64,000 nt of DNA from Opitutales bacterium (GTDB lineage: Bacteria; Verrucomicrobiota; Verrucomicrobiia; Opitutales; Coraliomargaritaceae). This document shows positions 48,183 to 57,323 of the stretch, one piece after another. Position 1 is the stretch's first letter. The number at the start of each line of letters is the position of its first letter. The position numbers and the translations under genes are program-made. The stretch spans positions 1-64,000 of the forward strand of contig JABBCA010000105.1 of assembly GCA_018607135.1 (NCBI GenBank). The letters run 5' to 3'. The notes beneath the pieces were generated by a model. The model saw only the letters and a list, made by a program, of their open reading frames with translations. It was not told the origin of the DNA and made no database searches.

Positions 48183-48412
48183 TGGTATATTGAGGATAGT
48201 GTTTGTGACACGAAAGCAGCCTTGAATGCCAAGGACTTAGTGCGTGTGCAAACTCTTTTGCTTAGTTTTCGCAAAAGAAAACCGATCTGAGCTATGAATC
48301 GCTTTCATTTTGCACGAAGGGCTAATCAGTAGTGGACTTTTCTTAGTATAAGCGGTGTGTTTTTATTTAAGCTTTTACTTACATGGTAGAGCTTTGGTTA
48401 CCCTCTCAACTC

Positions 48413-48811
48413 ATGGAACTGACATCATTCACGGATTATTCGCTTCGCGTTTTAATGTATCTGGCTAAGCATCAGCCAGAGCGTTCGTCGATTGATGAAT
48501 TGGCTGAATTTTATAAAATTTCGAGACACCACCTTGCGAAAATCATTAAACGTCTATCGCAGTTGGGCTATGTGGAGACGATTCGCGGTAAAGGTGGGGG
48601 CGTTTGTCTCGCTTTGGCTCCTGAGCGGATCAACTTGGCTAAAGTGATTCGTGGAACTGAGCCGCACTTTAATTTAGTCGAATGTTTTGCGAAAGAGAGT
48701 GCTGGGAACTGTGTGATTCATGGTAATTGTGCTTTAAAAGGTGTTCTTTGGCGTGCCCAAGGTCACTTTTTTGAACATTTAGAAAAATATACCTTAGCTG
48801 ATGTTGTCTGA
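48413..48811 (+). CDS. nsrR: NsrR-type Rrf2 regulator, probable nitric oxide sensor
   Basis: A 132-residue Rrf2 regulator with strong resemblance to NsrR: MELTSFTDYSLRVLMYLA at the start, HTH with ISRHHLAKIIKRLSQLGYVETIRGKGGGVCL, and YTLADVV at the end. Three Cys (C91, C100, C106) give a C-x8-C-x5-C cluster; E. coli NsrR has C-x4-C-x5-C for its NO-sensitive Fe-S cluster. The start at 48413 matches family N-termini; an ATG 30 bases upstream is possible. It stands directly before a heme-rich operon on the same strand. Confidence 0.88.
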   Translation: MELTSFTDYSLRVLMYLAKHQPERSSIDELAEFYKISRHHLAKIIKRLSQLGYVETIRGKGGGVCLALAPERINLAKVIRGTEPHFNLVECFAKESAGNCVIHGNCALKGVLWRAQGHFFEHLEKYTLADVV

Positions 48812-48932: not shown

Positions 48933-48965
48933 CTGGCCTGCTTTTTTATAAATGGTATTTCAAAT

Positions 48966-49012
48966 GCTATTTATCGCATAGCTCTCGAATCTTGAGCTCA
49001 CCGATAAATAGC
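48966..49012 (+). promoter_or_regulatory. Long two-part hairpin upstream of the redox operon
   Basis: GCTATTTATCG (48966-48976) pairs with CGATAAATAGC (49002-49012); inside, AGCTC (48980-48984) pairs with GAGCT (48994-48998). A symmetrical 3x3 internal loop separates the two stems and the apex is 9 bases. It ends 16 bases before the ATG of the DUF3365 gene, so it could act as an operator, an mRNA stabiliser or a translational switch. Confidence 0.6.
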
Positions 49013-49028
49013 TAACTCGAATATCAAA

Positions 49029-49625
49029 ATGAAGAAAACAGTCATTGCACTCACATCCGTCGTTGCCGCTATCGCTGCAACTTCGTTCCTTGCCGGTTGC
49101 GGTAAGTCCGAAGTAACCGTGGAACCAGGTCTTCCATTTGCCAAATTCACTGACGCACTCCACATGGTGCTTGATAATGACCGCGCGGTTTACACCAAGA
49201 ACGTGGTTGGTCGTCTCGCGGCGAAGGAAAAAGTTATCAAAGCCAGTGAGCACTGGACTGAAGATAAGGCACTGCCGTTACCAGCGCAAATGTTTCGTAT
49301 GGGCGCGGAGTTGACTGCAAGTAAAGATGCATTCTTTAGCTACTCGCTACAATCGTTATGGCCGATCAATAAGTCCAACGCGGCTGGCCAAACAGAAGTT
49401 GAAAAAGCAGGTCTGCAATTCGTTGCTGATAATGGTGGCACAGCTCCTTACTACAGTGAGGAAGAGCTTGGTGGTGTTAAGTATTTCACCGCGGTTTATG
49501 CTGATGTTGCTGTAGTGCCTGTCTGTGTGACTTGCCATAATGAGCACAAAGATAGTCCAAAGACAGACTTCGAACTTGGTGATGTCATGGGTGCGGTGGT
49601 GATCCGTGTCCCTATGGATTCTTAA
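49029..49625 (+). CDS. Tll0287-like (DUF3365) heme-binding lipoprotein
   Basis: A 198-residue envelope protein. Its signal ends in lipobox LAGC (Cys 24). The DUF3365/Tll0287-like domain, a PAS-type fold binding c-type heme, ends with CVTCH (residues 166-170) followed by NEHKDSPKTDFELGDVMGAVVI. Such domains often act as heme-based gas or redox sensors in signal proteins; here it is free-standing and lipid-anchored, so an electron carrier or NO-binding role is an inference. First gene of the operon. Confidence 0.85.
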   Translation: MKKTVIALTSVVAAIAATSFLAGCGKSEVTVEPGLPFAKFTDALHMVLDNDRAVYTKNVVGRLAAKEKVIKASEHWTEDKALPLPAQMFRMGAELTASKDAFFSYSLQSLWPINKSNAAGQTEVEKAGLQFVADNGGTAPYYSEEELGGVKYFTAVYADVAVVPVCVTCHNEHKDSPKTDFELGDVMGAVVIRVPMDS

Positions 49626-49644
49626 TTTCATACTGTCAGTTGAG

Positions 49645-50067
49645 ATGAAAAATGAACTTGGCATGGGTGGGCGTTTGCCTGCCGCGGTAGCTATCATAGT
49701 CCCTCTACTGCTTGTCGGGTGCGATAAACCTGAGGAGGTTTCTAGTCATTCGCAGCCTGTGCCGAGCTCTGTTTTTGATCCAATGGCCCTGGAAATTATC
49801 GACGCTAATTTAATTAAAGGTCGTGAGATATGGGTGCGCACTTGTGCGCAGTGCCACATACGCGGCCTAGGTGGGGCACCGATTATCGCTGATAAGGCAG
49901 ATTGGGCACCGCGAATTTTACAAGGAAAAGAAGTCCTCTATGACCATGCGATCAATGGTTTCGTTGGGCCGCAACTCAATGAGATGCCAGCAAAAGGCGG
50001 CTTTCTCGATCTTACTGATGAAGAAGTAAAGCTGGCCGTCGATTTTGTCGTCTTCGCTAGCGAATAA
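49645..50067 (+). CDS. Monoheme cytochrome c lipoprotein
   Basis: A 140-residue class I cytochrome c. Signal with lipobox LVGC (Cys 26), heme site CAQCH at residues 67-71, and a likely axial Met in MPAKGGF (Met 114). The start at 49645 gives the signal sequence; an earlier in-frame start overlaps the previous gene. Probably a periplasmic electron carrier for the operon. Confidence 0.9.
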   Translation: MKNELGMGGRLPAAVAIIVPLLLVGCDKPEEVSSHSQPVPSSVFDPMALEIIDANLIKGREIWVRTCAQCHIRGLGGAPIIADKADWAPRILQGKEVLYDHAINGFVGPQLNEMPAKGGFLDLTDEEVKLAVDFVVFASE

Positions 50068-50094: not shown

Positions 50095-50469
50095 ATGAGC
50101 ACACTATATGAAAAAATCGGCGGAGAGCCCGCCGTTGATGCAGCAGTCGATCTATTTTACGTCAAAGTTTTGGCTGACGACCGCATTAAACATTTCTTTG
50201 AAGGAATTCCAATGGATCGCATGCGCGGCCACCAGAAGAAGTTCCTAACTATGGCATTTAGCGGACCTAACAATTATTCTGGCCGCGGCATGAAGGCCGC
50301 GCACGCAAACCTAGTCGCTAAGTATGGTCTGAATGACACTCACTTTGATGCGGTGATCGAAAACCTCGGTGCTACTTTGGTTGAACTTGGAGTTCCAGAG
50401 GATCTCATCGGTCAAGCCGCTGCGATCGCAGAAAGCACACGCGAGTCTGTTCTAGGACGTGCGGACTAG
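50095..50469 (+). CDS. Group 1 truncated hemoglobin
   Basis: A 124-residue 2-on-2 globin of the TrHbN type: MSTLYEKIGGEPAVDAAVDLFY at the start, DRMRGHQKKFLTMAFSGP in the middle and the proximal His in MKAAHANL (about residue 70). TrHbN proteins oxidise NO to nitrate or shuttle O2/NO. No signal peptide, so cytoplasmic. Its place in an NsrR-linked operon supports a NO detoxification role. Confidence 0.93.
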   Translation: MSTLYEKIGGEPAVDAAVDLFYVKVLADDRIKHFFEGIPMDRMRGHQKKFLTMAFSGPNNYSGRGMKAAHANLVAKYGLNDTHFDAVIENLGATLVELGVPEDLIGQAAAIAESTRESVLGRAD

Positions 50470-50477
50470 TTCGTTTC

Positions 50478-51092
50478 GTGATTTCATTAGTTGAGAGTTT
50501 GAGTCGCAGGCTCGGTTCGATCCTGAGCCGATTACCTGCACTCGTCTCTCTTCTTGTCGTTACTGGATGTGAACGCGCATCGCCACGTGTTTACGATATT
50601 TCCCTGGTAGCTGAGGCACCGTTCGAAGTGAAAACTGCTCCAGTTGAAGCGGGCACCTCTGCATTGTTTGAAGGCTTAGCTTGGGATGTTCCACAGGCTT
50701 GGTCGGATGCGCCCGTCGGGCCGATGCGCTTAGTTGTATACACTGCGGTTGAGGGTGCGGTGGAGCTGAGTGTGAGTCGTTTCCCGGGAGACGTCGGAGG
50801 TGATCTTGCGAATATCAACCGTTGGCGACGACAGCTTGGATTGTCGCCTGTGTTAGATCTGAATAGTGTTGATGGCCTACAAGCTGAGCAAAACGGATCG
50901 ATCATGGCTCAAAGAATCGAACTTTTTACGGATGCTTCCGAGGGATCAAGTGGGATGTATATGCATTGGTTTAACTACCAAGGTTACACATGGTTTTTTA
51001 AGGCGAATGGCACTCGAAAGCCGTTGATCGAGATTCGCTCGGACTATGACTCATGGATACAATCCATAAATGCTTCCGCAGAGGGCGAGTAA
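50478..51092 (+). CDS. Lipoprotein of unknown function
   Basis: A 204-residue protein not recognised. GTG start at 50478, hydrophobic signal ending in lipobox VTGC (Cys 34). The body has LAWDVPQAWSDAP, VELSVSRFPGDVGGDLANINRWRRQLGLSP and WFNYQGYTWFFKANG, resembling small exported proteins often found beside cytochrome assembly genes. There is no heme motif. It lies 8 bases after the hemoglobin gene and 4 before the ResB gene, so it may assist assembly or anchor the complex. Confidence 0.75.
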   Translation: MISLVESLSRRLGSILSRLPALVSLLVVTGCERASPRVYDISLVAEAPFEVKTAPVEAGTSALFEGLAWDVPQAWSDAPVGPMRLVVYTAVEGAVELSVSRFPGDVGGDLANINRWRRQLGLSPVLDLNSVDGLQAEQNGSIMAQRIELFTDASEGSSGMYMHWFNYQGYTWFFKANGTRKPLIEIRSDYDSWIQSINASAEGE

Positions 51093-51096
51093 TTCG

Positions 51097-52221
51097 ATGC
51101 ATGCACTCTTTCTACGTCTTAGCTCGCTTAGGTTTACTGTAGTTTTATTACTACTCTCACTGATGCTGGTCTTTGCTGGCACGCTTGCGCAGGTGGAGCT
51201 TGGCATCTATCGCTCGCAGCAAGTGTATTTCGAAAGCTTCTTCCTGTGGAGTGAGCTCTTCGGACGGACTTTACCTGTGCTGCCCGCTGGCTACACGATT
51301 GGAACCTTGCTGTTGGTTAACTTAGTCTCGGCTTTTATTGTTCGTTTTAAAGTGAAGGGAAAGCACGCTGGGTTGTTATGCGTGCACTCTGGATTGATTT
51401 TACTCCTGCTTGGCGAAGTATTAACTGACGTGCTTTCGGTTGAGTCGCAATTGCGTTTGGTTGAGGGGGAGTCTAAAGATTATTCAGAAAGTATTTTTAA
51501 CTATGAACTCGCAGTCGCGCGTGCGATCGATTCGGGGCAGCGCGTCGTTGCTTATGATAGTCAGCAACTTGTGGAGGGCGCTGAGTTGTCGCATGCGGAG
51601 ATGCCGCTACAGCTTGAGGTATTAAAATTTTGGCCCAATTCAATGCTGCGCGCACAATCGACAGCCTCGCCCACGCAGGCAGATTCTGGGATAGGGGCAG
51701 CCGTGTCGGTGGTTGCGCTGCCGCTTACGGGCAAACTTGATGAGCGTAATGTGCCCACTGCTCTGGTGCATTGTCGCGTGGGAGGTGAGGACCTTGGGAC
51801 TTATATACTCTCTGGGCATTTAGGTGAAGCAGATCGTATTGAACTAGCCAATGGGATGTATGCAGAGTTGAGCTTGCGTCCTCAGCGATACTACATGGCG
51901 AGCACGGTTCATCTCGATGACTTTGTGCGCGAGGTGTATCCAGGCACTAATAAGCCGAGTCATTTTGAAAGTAAACTCACTTTGTCAGGGGGAGAGCTGC
52001 CCGCAGACCGGAAGGTAGCGATCTATATGAATCATCCTCTGCGTTTTGACGGTAAGACCTTTTATCAAGCGAGTTTTGCTGGTGAGGAAACGATTTCCAT
52101 TCTGCAGGTTGTGCAGAATCCGACATGGCTGCTGCCATACGTTTCGTGCCTGTTAATTACTATTGGGTTGTGTTGGCAGTCGCTTTCTCGTCTTAAGATT
52201 CGAAAGGGGAGCGCTGCGTGA
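51097..52221 (+). CDS. resB: ResB/Ccs1-like cytochrome c biogenesis protein
   Basis: System II cytochrome c assembly protein that, with CcsA, carries heme across the membrane and attaches it to CXXCH. The 374-residue product has three N-terminal helices (LRFTVVLLLLSLMLVFAGTLAQ; TIGTLLLVNLVSAFIV; HAGLLCVHSGLILLLLGEVL), a large periplasmic domain and a last helix near the C-terminus with the MNHPLRFDGKTFYQASF segment just before it. The start at 51097 is preferred. It overlaps ccsA by 4 bases. Confidence 0.87.
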   Translation: MHALFLRLSSLRFTVVLLLLSLMLVFAGTLAQVELGIYRSQQVYFESFFLWSELFGRTLPVLPAGYTIGTLLLVNLVSAFIVRFKVKGKHAGLLCVHSGLILLLLGEVLTDVLSVESQLRLVEGESKDYSESIFNYELAVARAIDSGQRVVAYDSQQLVEGAELSHAEMPLQLEVLKFWPNSMLRAQSTASPTQADSGIGAAVSVVALPLTGKLDERNVPTALVHCRVGGEDLGTYILSGHLGEADRIELANGMYAELSLRPQRYYMASTVHLDDFVREVYPGTNKPSHFESKLTLSGGELPADRKVAIYMNHPLRFDGKTFYQASFAGEETISILQVVQNPTWLLPYVSCLLITIGLCWQSLSRLKIRKGSAA

Positions 52222-54005
52222 AACCATATTTGAAGTATCTCACGCCGTTAATCCTGCTATTATTGGTGTGGAGCTCAGTGCGTCAGCCGCATCCGATTGG
52301 AGCCTTTAATTATGAAGCCTTCGGTCGGCTCCCAGTGCTCTTGGACGGACGTATTCAGCCAATGGATACGGTTGCTCGAAATTCACTGCTTATCTTATCA
52401 TCTAAAAGTTCGCCTCGCGTGGAAGTTGCTGGAGAGCCAGTTAAGCTCGTGCCAGCCGAATGGCTGGCGACGATTCTATTGAACCCTGAGGTAGCGAATC
52501 AATGGGCTATGATTCGTATTTATAATGAAGAGCTGAAAGATCAACTTGGGCTGCCTTTAGAGGTGAAGGATTTTTCGTTTAATGAGCTCGAGCCGTTCTT
52601 TGGCGAGATTGAGCTGCAGGCTACTGCCGCGAGGCAAATTGAAGGTCCGCGGCGTGATGCATTTCAACGCGCTAGCGTGAAGCTCTATGATAAGCTGATC
52701 CTGCACCTGCGTATGAGTCAGTCGATTTGGCTTTATGATCAAGACAGTATAGCTGGGGAGTGGGGCACTTTTACGAAACACATTGCAAGCCCCGCTGAAA
52801 AGCCGGGGCTGAGTGATCTGCTTCGTGAGCGTTATGGTCGTATGGCGGAGATGTCGTTGCTGCGCGTGATCCCTGAATCAGATGAGGTGTTCTTGACGAT
52901 CGGTCAGGCTCAGCTCGCTGGATTGGATAAAGGACAAGCGCATCCACTGGTGGCTATCTATTTGAACATTGCCGAGGCTTATCAAGCAGGGCAGGTGGAT
53001 CGATTTAATGTGTTGTTGGATCAAGTTGGTTTGGCATTTGAAAGCTATGCGCCTTCTTCTCGTGTGGAGGTCGAGCAAGCTTACAATGCGTTCAATCCAT
53101 TGTTGCGTGCGATGGTTGCCTACTTGTTGGGCGGCATTCTGGTGTGCGTTGCTTGGGTTCGCTGGCCCGAACGCCTCTTGCCTGCTGCAAGCTGGGCAAT
53201 CGGTATAGGATTGGTCTTTCATACCGTAGGTTTGCTGCTGAGGATGTATCTCCAAGGCAGGCCACCCGTTACGAACTTGTATTCGTCGGCTGTCTTTGTG
53301 GGGTGGGGCGCGACCTTATTTGGTCTGATTATAGAACGACGTAACAAGCAAGGCCTGGGTGCTTTGACGGCAGCGGCGATTGGGTTTTCGACTTTAGTTG
53401 TGGCGCAAGGATTGGCTGCGAGCGGTGATACGCTTGAACAAATGCAGGCCGTTCTAGATTCGAACTTTTGGTTAGCAACGCATGTGGTGACGATCACGCT
53501 TGGTTACTCCGCAACCTTCCTTGCTGGCTTCATTGGGATCGCCTACGTGTTGCGATTATGCGCGAATTCATTAGATAAGCAGTTCGTGCGACAGACTGCG
53601 ACACTTGCCTTTGGTATTTCCTTATTTGCGCTTTTATTGAGCTTCGTCGGCACCGTGCTCGGTGGCATCTGGGCCGATCAGTCATGGGGGCGATTCTGGG
53701 GATGGGATCCGAAGGAGAATGGCGCCGTGATGATTGTGATTTGGAATGCCGTTATCTTGCACGCGAAGTTATCGGGCATGTTGCGCGATCATGGTATCTT
53801 ACTTGCTGTGATCTTTGGTAATGTGATCACCGCGTTTTCATGGTTTGGAGTGAATATGTTAGGCATCGGCCTGCACTCGTATGGTTTTATGGATCAAGCG
53901 TTCTTTTGGTTAATCCTTTTTTGTGGGAGTCAGCTTTTAATCATCCTGTTGGGGGCGGCACGTGGTGCTTTCGTCAGTCGTTCGAAGGGAGCTGCACATG
54001 GTTAA
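52218..54005 (+). CDS. ccsA: CcsA/ResC-type cytochrome c heme lyase subunit
   Basis: Heme-handling protein of System II. The 595-residue product has one N-terminal helix, a soluble periplasmic region to about residue 290, then about eight helices including the WWD motif (IWADQSWGRFWGWDPKENGA) and flanking His residues. GTG start at 52218 overlapping the resB stop. Its location in the operon suggests dedicated maturation of the multiheme cytochrome. Ends 8 bases into the next gene. Confidence 0.92.
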   Translation: MKPYLKYLTPLILLLLVWSSVRQPHPIGAFNYEAFGRLPVLLDGRIQPMDTVARNSLLILSSKSSPRVEVAGEPVKLVPAEWLATILLNPEVANQWAMIRIYNEELKDQLGLPLEVKDFSFNELEPFFGEIELQATAARQIEGPRRDAFQRASVKLYDKLILHLRMSQSIWLYDQDSIAGEWGTFTKHIASPAEKPGLSDLLRERYGRMAEMSLLRVIPESDEVFLTIGQAQLAGLDKGQAHPLVAIYLNIAEAYQAGQVDRFNVLLDQVGLAFESYAPSSRVEVEQAYNAFNPLLRAMVAYLLGGILVCVAWVRWPERLLPAASWAIGIGLVFHTVGLLLRMYLQGRPPVTNLYSSAVFVGWGATLFGLIIERRNKQGLGALTAAAIGFSTLVVAQGLAASGDTLEQMQAVLDSNFWLATHVVTITLGYSATFLAGFIGIAYVLRLCANSLDKQFVRQTATLAFGISLFALLLSFVGTVLGGIWADQSWGRFWGWDPKENGAVMIVIWNAVILHAKLSGMLRDHGILLAVIFGNVITAFSWFGVNMLGIGLHSYGFMDQAFFWLILFCGSQLLIILLGAARGAFVSRSKGAAHG

Positions 54006-55977
54006 GGCGATGAAGCAGAAGTCGAAGCTTGGCCCAATAGTCATTATAGGAAACGGAATGGTGAGTTGGCGCTTGTGCCGTAGCTTAGTGGAGCTGGGTG
54101 TGCATGAGAGGCGTTCAATTCTAGTTTTTGGTGATGAAATACAACCCGCTTATGATCGGGTGAATCTAACCAAGTATTTTGATCTCGAGAAGTCGGATGA
54201 TTTACTGCTCTCAAATGCAGAGTGGTATGCGTCACACGATATCGCTTTGCATATAGGGCGAAAGATCATCCGTTTAGACCCACAGCAAAAGCTCGTGGTC
54301 GATGATCAAGGGCAAGAGTATGCGTATGCCGATTGCGTATTGGCTACCGGGAGTCGTGCATTTGTTCCGCCGATCGAAGGGGCTGCAAATGAGAATGTCT
54401 TTGTTTATCGGACGATTGAAGATATCGAGGCGATCAAAGCAGCTGCGCAAGGTGCACGCCGCGGTCTGGTGATTGGTGGTGGTTTGCTTGGCTTAGAGGC
54501 TGCGAATGTTTTAAAAGACCTTGGCCTAGAGACTTGTGTTGTGCAGGCGGCGAGTGGCTTGATGAGTCGTCAGCTCAACGAGGATGGATCTGGCTATTTG
54601 TTGCGTGAGGTCGCGGCGCTTGGGATGAGTGTGCGCCTGCGGACGAATACTCAACGTATTCAAAAAACGGCGACAAAGCTCGAAGTTGAGTTTAATCATG
54701 GAGATCCTCTTGAGGTTGATCTGGTGATTATCGCTGCTGGCATTCGACCTCGAGATGAACTGGCTGAGGAGGCCGGACTTCAAACCGCAGCGCGAGGAGG
54801 CTTTATTGTTGATGATCATCTGGAAACTAAGGTTGGGCATGTTTATGCGATTGGCGAGTGCGCTTCGCATCGAGGCGAAGTCTATGGCTTAGTGGCTCCT
54901 GGTTATGAGATGGCTGATTGTTTGGCGCAGCGCCTAGCGAGTAAAAAGAATGCACGTTATCGCGGTAGTGATTCCTCATGCCGCTTGAAACTTTTGGGAG
55001 TCGAAGTCGGGACTTTTGGTGATTATCTACAAGAAGGAGTATATCATGTGCATCGCGGAGCGCGCAGTTACCGTTCTTTGGTTTTTCGTCGGTCCAAATT
55101 AATTGGTGCGACCGTTATTGGCGATTGGAGTGAAATCGCTGAAATCGAACGGGCCGTCAAAGAGGGCCGAACATTTAGTAAAGGAATGCGCCGTCATTTC
55201 GAGCGCACTGGAGATTTATTTGGTGAGTCGATGATCACCAGCGTGATTCATTGGCCAGATACGGCGATTGTTTGTAACTGCACGCGCACGAGTTGTGGCA
55301 CATTGCGCGAAGCGGTGGGTGCGGGTTGCTTAACAGTCGCTGCGTTGACGGAGCGCACTGGGGCTGGGGGCGTGTGCGGTTCCTGTATGCCTCAGTTGGC
55401 TGACTTTGTGGGTGAAGATGTAGGCCAAGTGCTGGATGTGGCGCGACCCAAGGGAGGGATGCTGCTCATGATTTCTGCGATCATTGCGCTGATAGTTTGC
55501 TTGGGCTTTATTTTGGGGCCACCTGTGCCTGCTGCGAAAACTGTGCAGAGCACCTATTACGAGTTCACGCAGATTTGGCAGGATTCGTTCACAAAAAAAG
55601 TTACTGGCTATACGATTGCCGGCTTGTCGCTCTTTGCAATTTTACTCTCTGCGCGCAAGCGCTTTCGATGGCTGAACTTCGGTAATTATGGTTTTTGGCG
55701 GGCGGCGCATTCGTGGCTGGGGGTGACTACACTGCTTGGTATATTCTTTCACACAGGGCTGAATTTCGGTGAAAATTTAAATTTCTGGCTGCTCATTTGT
55801 TTTCTAGGGTTGAACCTAGCGGGTGGTCTTGCCGCAATTGCTGTGGCTGCTGAGAAGCGCTTTTCAGGTCCTGTCGGAGCACGTCTTCGAGGTGTGGCGA
55901 CGAAGGCACATATTGTATTCTTTCTTCCTTATCCGGTCTTACTCGGATTTCACATTGCTAAGGTCTATCTCTACTAA
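53998..55977 (+). CDS. NirB-like FAD oxidoreductase fused to Bfd-type [2Fe-2S] and bis-heme b membrane domains
   Basis: A 659-residue fusion. Residues 10-400 are a NirB-type pyridine-nucleotide:FAD oxidoreductase (IVIIGNGMVSWRLC, LATGSRAFVPP, LVIGGGLLGLEAANVL, YAIGECASHRGEVYGL). Residues 420-465 are a Bfd-like cluster site with Cys 426, 428, 460 and 463. The siroheme reductase part of NirB is absent; instead residues 490-656 form about five helices with His 571/585 and His 638/652, each pair 14 apart in a helix, as in bis-heme b ferric-reductase-like proteins. This suggests NAD(P)H-FAD-[2Fe-2S]-heme b transfer to the periplasm. Start ATG at 53998. Confidence 0.85.
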   Translation: MVKAMKQKSKLGPIVIIGNGMVSWRLCRSLVELGVHERRSILVFGDEIQPAYDRVNLTKYFDLEKSDDLLLSNAEWYASHDIALHIGRKIIRLDPQQKLVVDDQGQEYAYADCVLATGSRAFVPPIEGAANENVFVYRTIEDIEAIKAAAQGARRGLVIGGGLLGLEAANVLKDLGLETCVVQAASGLMSRQLNEDGSGYLLREVAALGMSVRLRTNTQRIQKTATKLEVEFNHGDPLEVDLVIIAAGIRPRDELAEEAGLQTAARGGFIVDDHLETKVGHVYAIGECASHRGEVYGLVAPGYEMADCLAQRLASKKNARYRGSDSSCRLKLLGVEVGTFGDYLQEGVYHVHRGARSYRSLVFRRSKLIGATVIGDWSEIAEIERAVKEGRTFSKGMRRHFERTGDLFGESMITSVIHWPDTAIVCNCTRTSCGTLREAVGAGCLTVAALTERTGAGGVCGSCMPQLADFVGEDVGQVLDVARPKGGMLLMISAIIALIVCLGFILGPPVPAAKTVQSTYYEFTQIWQDSFTKKVTGYTIAGLSLFAILLSARKRFRWLNFGNYGFWRAAHSWLGVTTLLGIFFHTGLNFGENLNFWLLICFLGLNLAGGLAAIAVAAEKRFSGPVGARLRGVATKAHIVFFLPYPVLLGFHIAKVYLY

Positions 55978-57323
55978 TGTTTAAGGCAATAAAGGCAAAT
56001 CTCTTCTGGCTCATACTTGTGGGCGCATTGGCAGCTTATCTCAGCTTTGCACTCATTGGTGGTGCTGAACATGAGTTCATGCCTGGGCAAACTACGCATG
56101 GGCATCATCAAATTGAAATGGCTTGCTCGGTGTGTCATACCACTGGCATGGGCGTGAAGCAGGACTCATGTAATGAATGTCACCAGGAGGAGCTCACTCG
56201 TGTCGATGATTCACACCCGGTGATTAAATTCAAAGATCCGCGCAATGCATCTCGCTTGGAACAATTGGACGCACGTTACTGCATTACTTGTCACCGAGAG
56301 CATCAACCTGAAATTACCAATTCAATGGGTGTGACTTTGCCTGAGGATTATTGTTATTATTGTCACCAAGAGATCGGCGACGAGCGACCTTCGCATAAGG
56401 ACTTTGCATTCGATTCATGCGCGACTGCTGGCTGTCATAATTTTCATGATAATAGTGCGCTCTACGAACGTTTCTTGGCGAGCCATTTGGACGAGCCCGA
56501 CTTCAAGGAAGTCGCAAAGCAGCGCCTGCGAAGCTATTACGACAACCCCGATCATACAAAGGGTGATGCACTGGAGCACGCTGATGCGGATATGCCCGAC
56601 GACGCGCAGCACACGCATCGTATATTACATGATTGGTCGACTACCGCACATGCTGCTGTGGGTGTGAACTGCACCGATTGTCATAATGTGAAAGACACGG
56701 AGACAGGTGCGATTACATGGCAAGATAGGCCTGGCTACACGTCCTGCCAAGAGTGCCATAAGCACGAAACTAAAGGCTTCCTTGAGGGCAAACACGGGAT
56801 GCGTTTGGCTCAAGGTTTGAGCCCGATGACGCCAAGTATGGCGAAAATACCGATGCGCGCTGAAGCAGCGCATAGTGAGTTGACCTGTGCCTCCTGCCAC
56901 GATAGCCACCGCTTTAATACCAAGACCGCTGCAGTCGATGCCTGCTTGCAGTGCCACAATGATGATCACTCAACCGCCTACAAGGAGTCGCCACACTTTA
57001 AGCTCTTTATCGATGCGCAGCGTGGTTTGAAATCGTCCGACGAGGCGGTGAGCTGTGCGACTTGCCACATGCCACGTGTTGAGAAGACTGAGTTTGGCGA
57101 GACGATCACAATTGTAGATCATAATCAAAACAACAGTCTGCGCCCGAATGATAAGATGATCCGAAGCTCATGTATCCAGTGTCACGGACTTCAGTTTACA
57201 CTGAATGCTTTGGCGGATCGCGATTTGATCGACCGAAATTTTAAGGGGAAGCCGAGTGTCTTTGTCGAGAGTCTAGAGCTCGCTCGCGAAGAAAAGGAAC
57301 GCACCGAGGCTGCCAAGAAATGA
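55977..57323 (+). CDS. Membrane-anchored 11-heme cytochrome c (HAO/NrfA-superfamily-like)
   Basis: A 448-residue cytochrome with an uncleaved-looking N-terminal helix (LFWLILVGALAAYLSFALIGG). Ten CXXCH sites start at residues 50, 65, 102, 126, 232, 257, 304, 323, 360 and 399, plus CX4CH at 148-154. The C-terminal half has CATCHMPR, VDHNQN, KMIRSSCIQCHG and ALADRDLI, recalling octaheme hydroxylamine-oxidoreductase and nitrite-reductase relatives. No CXXCK site of classic NrfA is seen. The gene overlaps the fusion oxidoreductase by one base (TAATG). Likely terminal reductase; substrate unproven (nitrite, NO or hydroxylamine). Confidence 0.88.
   Translation: MFKAIKANLFWLILVGALAAYLSFALIGGAEHEFMPGQTTHGHHQIEMACSVCHTTGMGVKQDSCNECHQEELTRVDDSHPVIKFKDPRNASRLEQLDARYCITCHREHQPEITNSMGVTLPEDYCYYCHQEIGDERPSHKDFAFDSCATAGCHNFHDNSALYERFLASHLDEPDFKEVAKQRLRSYYDNPDHTKGDALEHADADMPDDAQHTHRILHDWSTTAHAAVGVNCTDCHNVKDTETGAITWQDRPGYTSCQECHKHETKGFLEGKHGMRLAQGLSPMTPSMAKIPMRAEAAHSELTCASCHDSHRFNTKTAAVDACLQCHNDDHSTAYKESPHFKLFIDAQRGLKSSDEAVSCATCHMPRVEKTEFGETITIVDHNQNNSLRPNDKMIRSSCIQCHGLQFTLNALADRDLIDRNFKGKPSVFVESLELAREEKERTEAAKK

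Follow-up and report, generated by a model that had tools for sequence, protein, structure and literature searches.

What does an eleven-heme cytochrome do when half of it resembles the octaheme enzyme HAO, yet carries no heme motif where HAO has its catalytic heme? The question is raised by U11, an undecaheme c-type cytochrome encoded in the window, that is, the whole stretch of 64,000 nucleotides analysed here from contig JABBCA010000105.1 of an Opitutales bacterium. We propose an electron pathway that is driven by NADH and crosses the membrane, with U11 as its periplasmic subunit anchored in the inner membrane; U11 would serve mainly as a conduit there and would probably handle reactive nitrogen, a reading to which we give about even chances. 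Its motif set, the homology to HAO, the missing site for heme 4, the cofactor ligands of its upstream partner FADb and the linkage of the genes are computed results.

A sequence-only reading of this DNA had counted ten CXXCH motifs and one CX4CH motif (residues 148–154) in U11, which the translation confirms. Relatives were sought by scanning six short peptides against one genome per species, which gave 143, of which 80 were kept (L001–L080). Exactly ten CXXCH and one CX4CH are present in 80/80 of them, and with the window copy included the CX4CH is motif number five in 81/81. Across an alignment of 70 of these 81 sequences (the 11 omitted include near-duplicates and one partial sequence) every motif cysteine and histidine is invariant. 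The rows of the U11 tree represent at least ten phyla, with Cerasicoccus (Verrucomicrobiota) as the group of the window copy. A sample of 57 genomes from around that of the window, which is one of them, yielded full-length U11 in the window's genome alone, and the occurrence of the gene is therefore patchy. Two outcomes had been named beforehand as contrary to the sequence-only reading, namely that U11 matches a described undecaheme family over its full length or has fewer than eleven motifs; neither arose in the libraries searched.

The C-terminal half had been called HAO-like from the letters, and structural and profile comparisons agree with this. Using the AlphaFold2 model of U11 (mean pLDDT 86.5, with residues 200–448 best and 110–160 weaker), Foldseek returned a HAO as best match (E 2.5e-3, probability 1.0), and VIA-align gave HAO a Z of 7.3 with 186 residues aligned (model residues 203–424), next to hydrazine dehydrogenase (6.7), NrfA and ONR (about 5) and OcwA (6i5b, 4.9), in rows that span residues 202–425. 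A Z below 8 is modest by itself; all fold matches listed are multiheme cytochromes, almost all from the HAO/NrfA/ONR group, and the sequence profiles agree. For the latter, a HAO-type set was assembled from six HAO sequences of nitrifier type, whose six source genomes include four with three equally scoring hao-like copies, and from six HAO-like octahemes collected via PF13447. In profile-profile comparison by hhalign, residues 211–413 of U11 matched the HAO-type octahemes with 99% probability, the E-value being that of a single comparison and not of a database search. A joint MAFFT alignment of 10 of the 70 U11 rows with 11 HAO-type sequences (L094 was omitted) placed U11 hemes 6–11 opposite HAO hemes 2, 3, 5, 6, 7 and 8. 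In a test of the alternative register, the sub-profile of residues 205–303 favoured HAO hemes 2–3 (76 and 88), then hemes 5–6 (46 and 45), and reached heme 4 with a score of 22, against L097 only. Two Pfam families also touch this half, PF02335 (Cytochrom_C552) with 21.8 bits, below its cut-off of 24.1 and at residues 355–404 only, and PF22113 (MtrC/MtrF domains II/IV) with 33 bits at a cut-off of 30, while the fold rows are those of HAO, NrfA and ONR.

Heme 4 of HAO is the catalytic P460 heme, with further roles for Asp267, His268, Tyr334 and Tyr467, and a C-terminal helix bundle carries the cross-linking tyrosine. In the joint alignment C229/C232/H233 of heme 4 faces gaps in 10/10 U11 rows, and no U11 heme motif lies opposite C79/C82/H83 of heme 1. 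Hemes 7 and 8 of U11 are 47–64 residues apart, and the last motif together with everything behind it takes up 42–69 residues (81/81); because of this short spacing and short tail, the C-terminal helices of HAO have no room in U11, whose model shows a single helix of 16 residues near the C-terminus. The catalytic CXXCK heme of NrfA and ONR, of which variants exist, was not found either, since all eleven U11 motifs end in CH and no CXXCK occurs outside them in the window protein. Judged by these comparisons, the predicted hexaheme core is a descendant of HAO or shares an ancestor with it, and is without the catalytic heme.

The N-terminal half proved richer in hemes than the 'three or so' suggested earlier: it is a module of five, leaving six in the HAO-like half. 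Residues 43–131 match Cytochrom_c3_2 (PF14537) with 62.4 bits, and a weak match to PF22678 (NrfB-like) has E 0.13; in VIA-align this half yielded no fold rows of its own. The modelled helix at residues 2–27 is consistent with the uncleaved anchor expected from the letters. G090, which belongs to the same order as the window's genome, holds a stand-alone membrane-anchored pentaheme protein (L085/L086) with 37% identity to residues 48–162 of U11. In L086 (6692–8833, minus strand) this anchored pentaheme is followed by a Tll0287-like gene and by a membrane protein of 188 amino acids with four histidines in two pairs, each spaced by 14 residues, while the set contains neither the FAD half nor the HAO half; it shows that a putative membrane cytochrome/pentaheme pair can exist by itself. 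The sequence-only reading had seen in U11 an NrfH/NapC-like donor fused to a reductase core. That a membrane-anchored, donor-type multiheme module is joined to a core of the HAO superfamily holds, and the separate pentaheme gene of G090 fits it. A donor of NapC/NrfH type is rejected on the Pfam search, which gave no NapC/NirT match at E≤1 and Cytochrom_c3_2 instead, and a reductase core is doubtful, as HAO hemes 1 and 4 have no counterpart.

Eleven histidines outside the motifs are identical in 70/70 rows (43, 80, 109, 140, 157, 225, 273, 311, 331, 340 and 382), and the next best are His170 (61/70) and His429 (54/70, with Phe in the window). Heme ligands were assigned from alignment and count alone. 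Since eleven invariant histidines equal the number of ligands needed for eleven hemes, bis-histidine ligation throughout is possible, and U11 could be more wire than reductase. Asp329, which is nearly invariant, is aligned with His268 of HAO, and the invariant His331 lies two columns on; owing to this proximity His331 could instead line the pocket of an open heme.

A likely donor is encoded directly upstream. The stop codon of FADb overlaps the start codon of U11 by one base, and FADb is found near U11 in 71/81 loci. It matches the NirB model over positions 1–465 of 794 (429.6 bits, cut-off 578), and the siroheme/[4Fe-4S] half of NirB is not matched. Cys438/440/472/475 of the BFD domain and His583/597/650/664 of the membrane part, with the members of each histidine pair 14 apart, are identical in 63/63 FADb sequences, 56 of which entered the alignment. 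The AlphaFold2 model (pLDDT 91) has the fold of an NADH-dependent ferredoxin reductase with VIA Z 45, in matches that cover the FAD domain; the membrane part is taken from predicted helices. FADb is thus likely to be the NADH-to-periplasm donor for U11. Nor does the partner support the sequence-only reading: the upstream gene encodes an NADH/FAD/[2Fe-2S]/heme-b protein, which is not obviously part of a quinol pathway. A similar logic is known from MsrPQ, where electrons pass from NADH and flavin over membrane b hemes to a periplasmic acceptor; the periplasmic protein is a different one, and FADb unites the FAD and b-heme parts in one chain.

The genes around U11 point to nitrogen metabolism. 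A globin is present in 68/80 loci, as truncated globin in 9 and as full-length single-domain globin in 59, in the same slot. Markers of nitrate assimilation were NrtA, NrtB, NasA, a NasT-type ANTAR protein and NarK, with queries taken from the U11 loci themselves and family identities checked on representatives; for NrtA and NrtB we take the identity from general transporter families and recognition of the sequence. At least one marker occurs in 34/80 loci and in 22/51 of those with flanks of at least 19 kb, and ten loci have neither globin nor marker. By one common criterion, globin and nitrate markers were each found in 0/20 control regions, which were taken from 7 carrier genomes at positions chosen by the authors. 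Siroheme nitrite reductases were surveyed in 50/80 carrier genomes, picked for isolates and long contigs: NirB exceeds its cut-off in 36 and, of the remaining 14, 11 have NirA, which brings the total to 47/50, compared with 9/32 relatives that have no U11 (32 of 35 having at least 90% completeness and at most 5% contamination). The window's genome has NirA (869 bits) and CysI. Since nearly all carriers surveyed retain siroheme nitrite reductase, U11 goes together with nitrite assimilation and does not take its place.

We therefore propose a model in which cytoplasmic NADH would reduce the FAD and [2Fe-2S] centres of FADb and then its two b hemes, from which electrons would enter the pentaheme module of U11, cross to the HAO-derived hexaheme module and leave either to small periplasmic heme proteins, such as the Tll0287-like monoheme protein or cytochrome c, or directly to a small nitrogen oxide. 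The direction of flow, bis-histidine ligation of all hemes, the partners, the substrate and the terminal step are what we infer here. Because the core is without a catalytic heme, U11 would be mainly a conduit, and since the system is found together with nitrate assimilation and globin, handling of reactive nitrogen, meaning nitric oxide (NO), nitrite or hydroxylamine, would be its most likely job at the periplasmic face. Defence against NO or nitrite would be the most economical purpose, given the adjacent globin and nitrate genes. Several points weigh against this model. In 46/80 loci the flank examined holds no nitrate marker, including 29/51 with flanks of at least 19 kb; globin linkage suits NO defence, yet globin can have other uses; carrier and control sets differ in taxonomy, so that the nitrite reductase result is an association and not a corrected test; and the count of eleven histidines also fits ten ligands plus one pocket residue. 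In addition, NO is bound weakly by the stand-alone Tll0287-type protein on which there are measurements to date, a protein regarded as redox-active, and tightly by a signalling one (PMC12889525).

The prospect of a pocket residue leads to an alternative that we consider unlikely, while leaving it an appreciable share of the probability. In it, U11 is itself an NADH-fed periplasmic reductase of nitrite, NO or hydroxylamine, with one heme open, for example heme 10, and His331 as its pocket residue; the distal ligand of this heme in HAO and NrfA presumably comes from the C-terminal region that U11 lacks. HAO ancestry, the placement of Asp329 and His331 and the variability of His429, the sole candidate for a C-terminal ligand, would all suit such a reductase, and OcwA, a relative of HAO and NrfA with CXXCH-bound open hemes, is reported to reduce nitrite and hydroxylamine slowly (PMC6703420). 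However, the heme-4 site of HAO is gone, the invariant histidines are enough for eleven bis-histidine hemes, and nearly all surveyed carriers already have a siroheme enzyme for nitrite. This last result also bears on the proposal that U11 substitutes for the assimilatory nitrite reductase and supplies ammonium from the periplasm. The nitrate transport genes adjoining U11 and the make-up of FADb, which corresponds to NirB's NADH half with the siroheme half missing, would be in line with it, but with NirB or NirA in 47/50 carriers, and NirA in the window's genome too, it is largely refuted and keeps a next to negligible probability.

Two further alternatives concern where electrons come from or go to. 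Participation in an extracellular chain that exchanges electrons with metals or electrodes, in the manner of UndA/MtrC or Uet, could be read from the PF22113 match and from carriers of iron-oxidiser or biocathode lineages (L043, L048). U11 has no lipobox and no cysteine ahead of residue 50, though, and at the 81 loci no neighbouring open reading frame beyond the known members has three or more heme motifs, so that we reject this chain as distinctly improbable. A reversed flow, in which periplasmic oxidation of, for instance, hydroxylamine or NO would feed U11, the b hemes and finally NAD+, agrees with HAO ancestry and with the reversibility in principle of every centre; as the P460 heme and the C-terminal region of HAO are absent and FADb resembles NADH-oxidising reductases, we hold it to be highly improbable.

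The proposed conduit can be set beside several known systems. With HAO and HAO-like octahemes U11 shares the collinear hemes 2, 3 and 5–8, their spacing, most distal-type histidines and the fold; it differs in lacking heme 1, heme 4 and the C-terminal helix bundle and in the fused anchored pentaheme. NrfA and ONR have the same CXXCHMP...H...CXXCH end motif, in contrast to which U11 has a compact core of six hemes without the CXXCK heme. NapC/NrfH and NrfB-type carriers resemble it in the role of a membrane-anchored or small multiheme donor, whereas U11 uses a five-heme module of cytochrome-c3 type. The Thermincola nonaheme OcwA is likewise a relative of HAO and NrfA used in electron delivery, but it sits at the cell surface and has two open hemes as well as a three-helix bundle (PMC6703420). 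The Bradyrhizobium narK-bjgb-flp-nasC operon places NO defence by a globin and an NAD(P)H reductase in a nitrate-assimilation context and is thereby a precedent for the role proposed here; among its genes as named there is neither a membrane cytochrome b nor a multiheme cytochrome (PMC4724949). Published undecaheme cytochromes in the literature searched were UndA and those of the Uet pathway (PMC5371394, PMC10734462, PMC13264449, PMC13386937). UndA/MtrC and UetJ, with ten or eleven hemes, are alike in heme number, and PF22113 matches part of U11; their outer-membrane or porin context was not seen at U11 loci, with UetJ judged by its published description; the earlier claim that 11-heme cytochromes of UndA type differ is upheld in this respect. 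Uet also comprises triheme cytochrome genes (PMC10734462), which have no counterpart neighbour at the U11 loci.

No paper among those listed in searches of open-licence PubMed Central was recognised as a description of the U11 protein or cluster. Tentatively, and with less than even confidence, we suggest that a core of the HAO superfamily which lost or never had the catalytic heme, an anchored pentaheme module and an NADH/[2Fe-2S]/heme-b donor form a previously undescribed NADH-to-periplasm pathway, which would serve bacteria of at least ten phyla as that arm of nitrate assimilation which deals with nitrosative stress. The nitrogen cycle has central enzymes in HAO, NrfA and ONR, and it is well established which of their hemes is catalytic. 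A conserved relative with six of the eight HAO hemes minus the catalytic one would represent either the use of the array as wiring or a preserved pre-catalytic stage. With the NADH reductase, the Tll0287-like protein and the globin that are linked to U11, nitrate assimilation in bacteria would gain a periplasmic branch. Surveys often take HAO-like sequences as markers of the nitrogen cycle, so that U11-type genes could be mistaken for enzymes of hydroxylamine or nitrite.

Table 1. Positions of U11, its parts and the neighbouring genes in the window.
Feature	Position	Strand	Basis
U11, undecaheme c-type cytochrome, 448 aa	55977–57323	+	stop-free translation: 10 CXXCH and 1 CX4CH
N-terminal membrane anchor, residues 1–28	55977–56060	+	sequence; AlphaFold2 helix 2–27
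Pentaheme module, hemes 1–5, residues 43–170, cytochrome-c3 type	56103–56486	+	PF14537; invariant non-motif His 43, 80, 109, 140, 157; separate homologue L085/L086
CX4CH site of heme 5 (CATAGCH, residues 148–154)	56418–56438	+	sequence
HAO-like hexaheme core, hemes 6–11, residues 203–425 (HAO hemes 2, 3, 5, 6, 7, 8)	56583–57251	+	VIA-align; hhalign; joint MAFFT alignment
Segment separating hemes 7 and 8, residues 274–303, without heme motif where HAO has catalytic heme 4	56796–56885	+	alignment gap; 11 motifs in 81/81
FADb, NirB-like NADH/FAD and BFD [2Fe-2S] reductase fused to four-His membrane cytochrome b	53962–55977	+	Pfam/NCBIfam; conserved ligands; AlphaFold2
Rrf2-family regulator	48383–48811	+	PF02082; best equivalogs NsrR and RirA, both below cut-offs
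Tll0287-like (sCache_heme) monoheme lipoprotein	49029–49625	+	PF11845, 2.3e-16; CXXCH and His173 in 60/60
Class I cytochrome c, lipoprotein-like	49606–50067	+	PF13442; homologue in 20/81 loci
Truncated globin	50095–50469	+	PF01152
Protein of unknown function	50478–51092	+	no Pfam/NCBIfam match; homologue beside ResB/CcsA in L046, L057, L061
ResB-like cytochrome c maturation protein	51070–52221	+	PF05140
CcsA/CcsB-like cytochrome c assembly protein	52218–54005	+	PF01578; TIGR03144 below cut-off

Among the remaining genes of the cluster (Table 1), that for the Tll0287-like protein is found in 59/81 loci. Tll0287-like domains are c-heme Cache domains, and the proteins described in PMC12889525 are Cys/His-ligated. 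The proteins here differ from these, as they have an invariant histidine three residues past CXXCH and no conserved cysteine beyond heme motif and lipobox, hence no conserved axial cysteine. A phmmer search with the Tll0287-like protein found nothing in the PDB at E≤0.1 by which its axial ligand could be placed.

Upstream of the Tll0287-like gene lies an imperfect 11-1-11 palindrome (48950–48972), and arms like AAAATGGCA/TGCTATTTT occur at the equivalent position in L001 and L002. We take it to resemble NsrR-type operators, which would suit the adjacent Rrf2 gene. Three loci of Planctomycetota type, those named in Table 1, share with the window the presence of the protein of unknown function, ResB and CcsA (50478–54005) in the cluster. 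A gene for an outer-membrane channel of Alginate_exp type is present in 10 loci (L021:4775–6094 and nine others), at a median of 3.4 kb upstream of U11. In 7 loci (L072:12123–13118 and six others) a gene for a 2Fe-2S/FAD reductase of ferredoxin type stands near the truncated globin, whose reductase it perhaps encodes.

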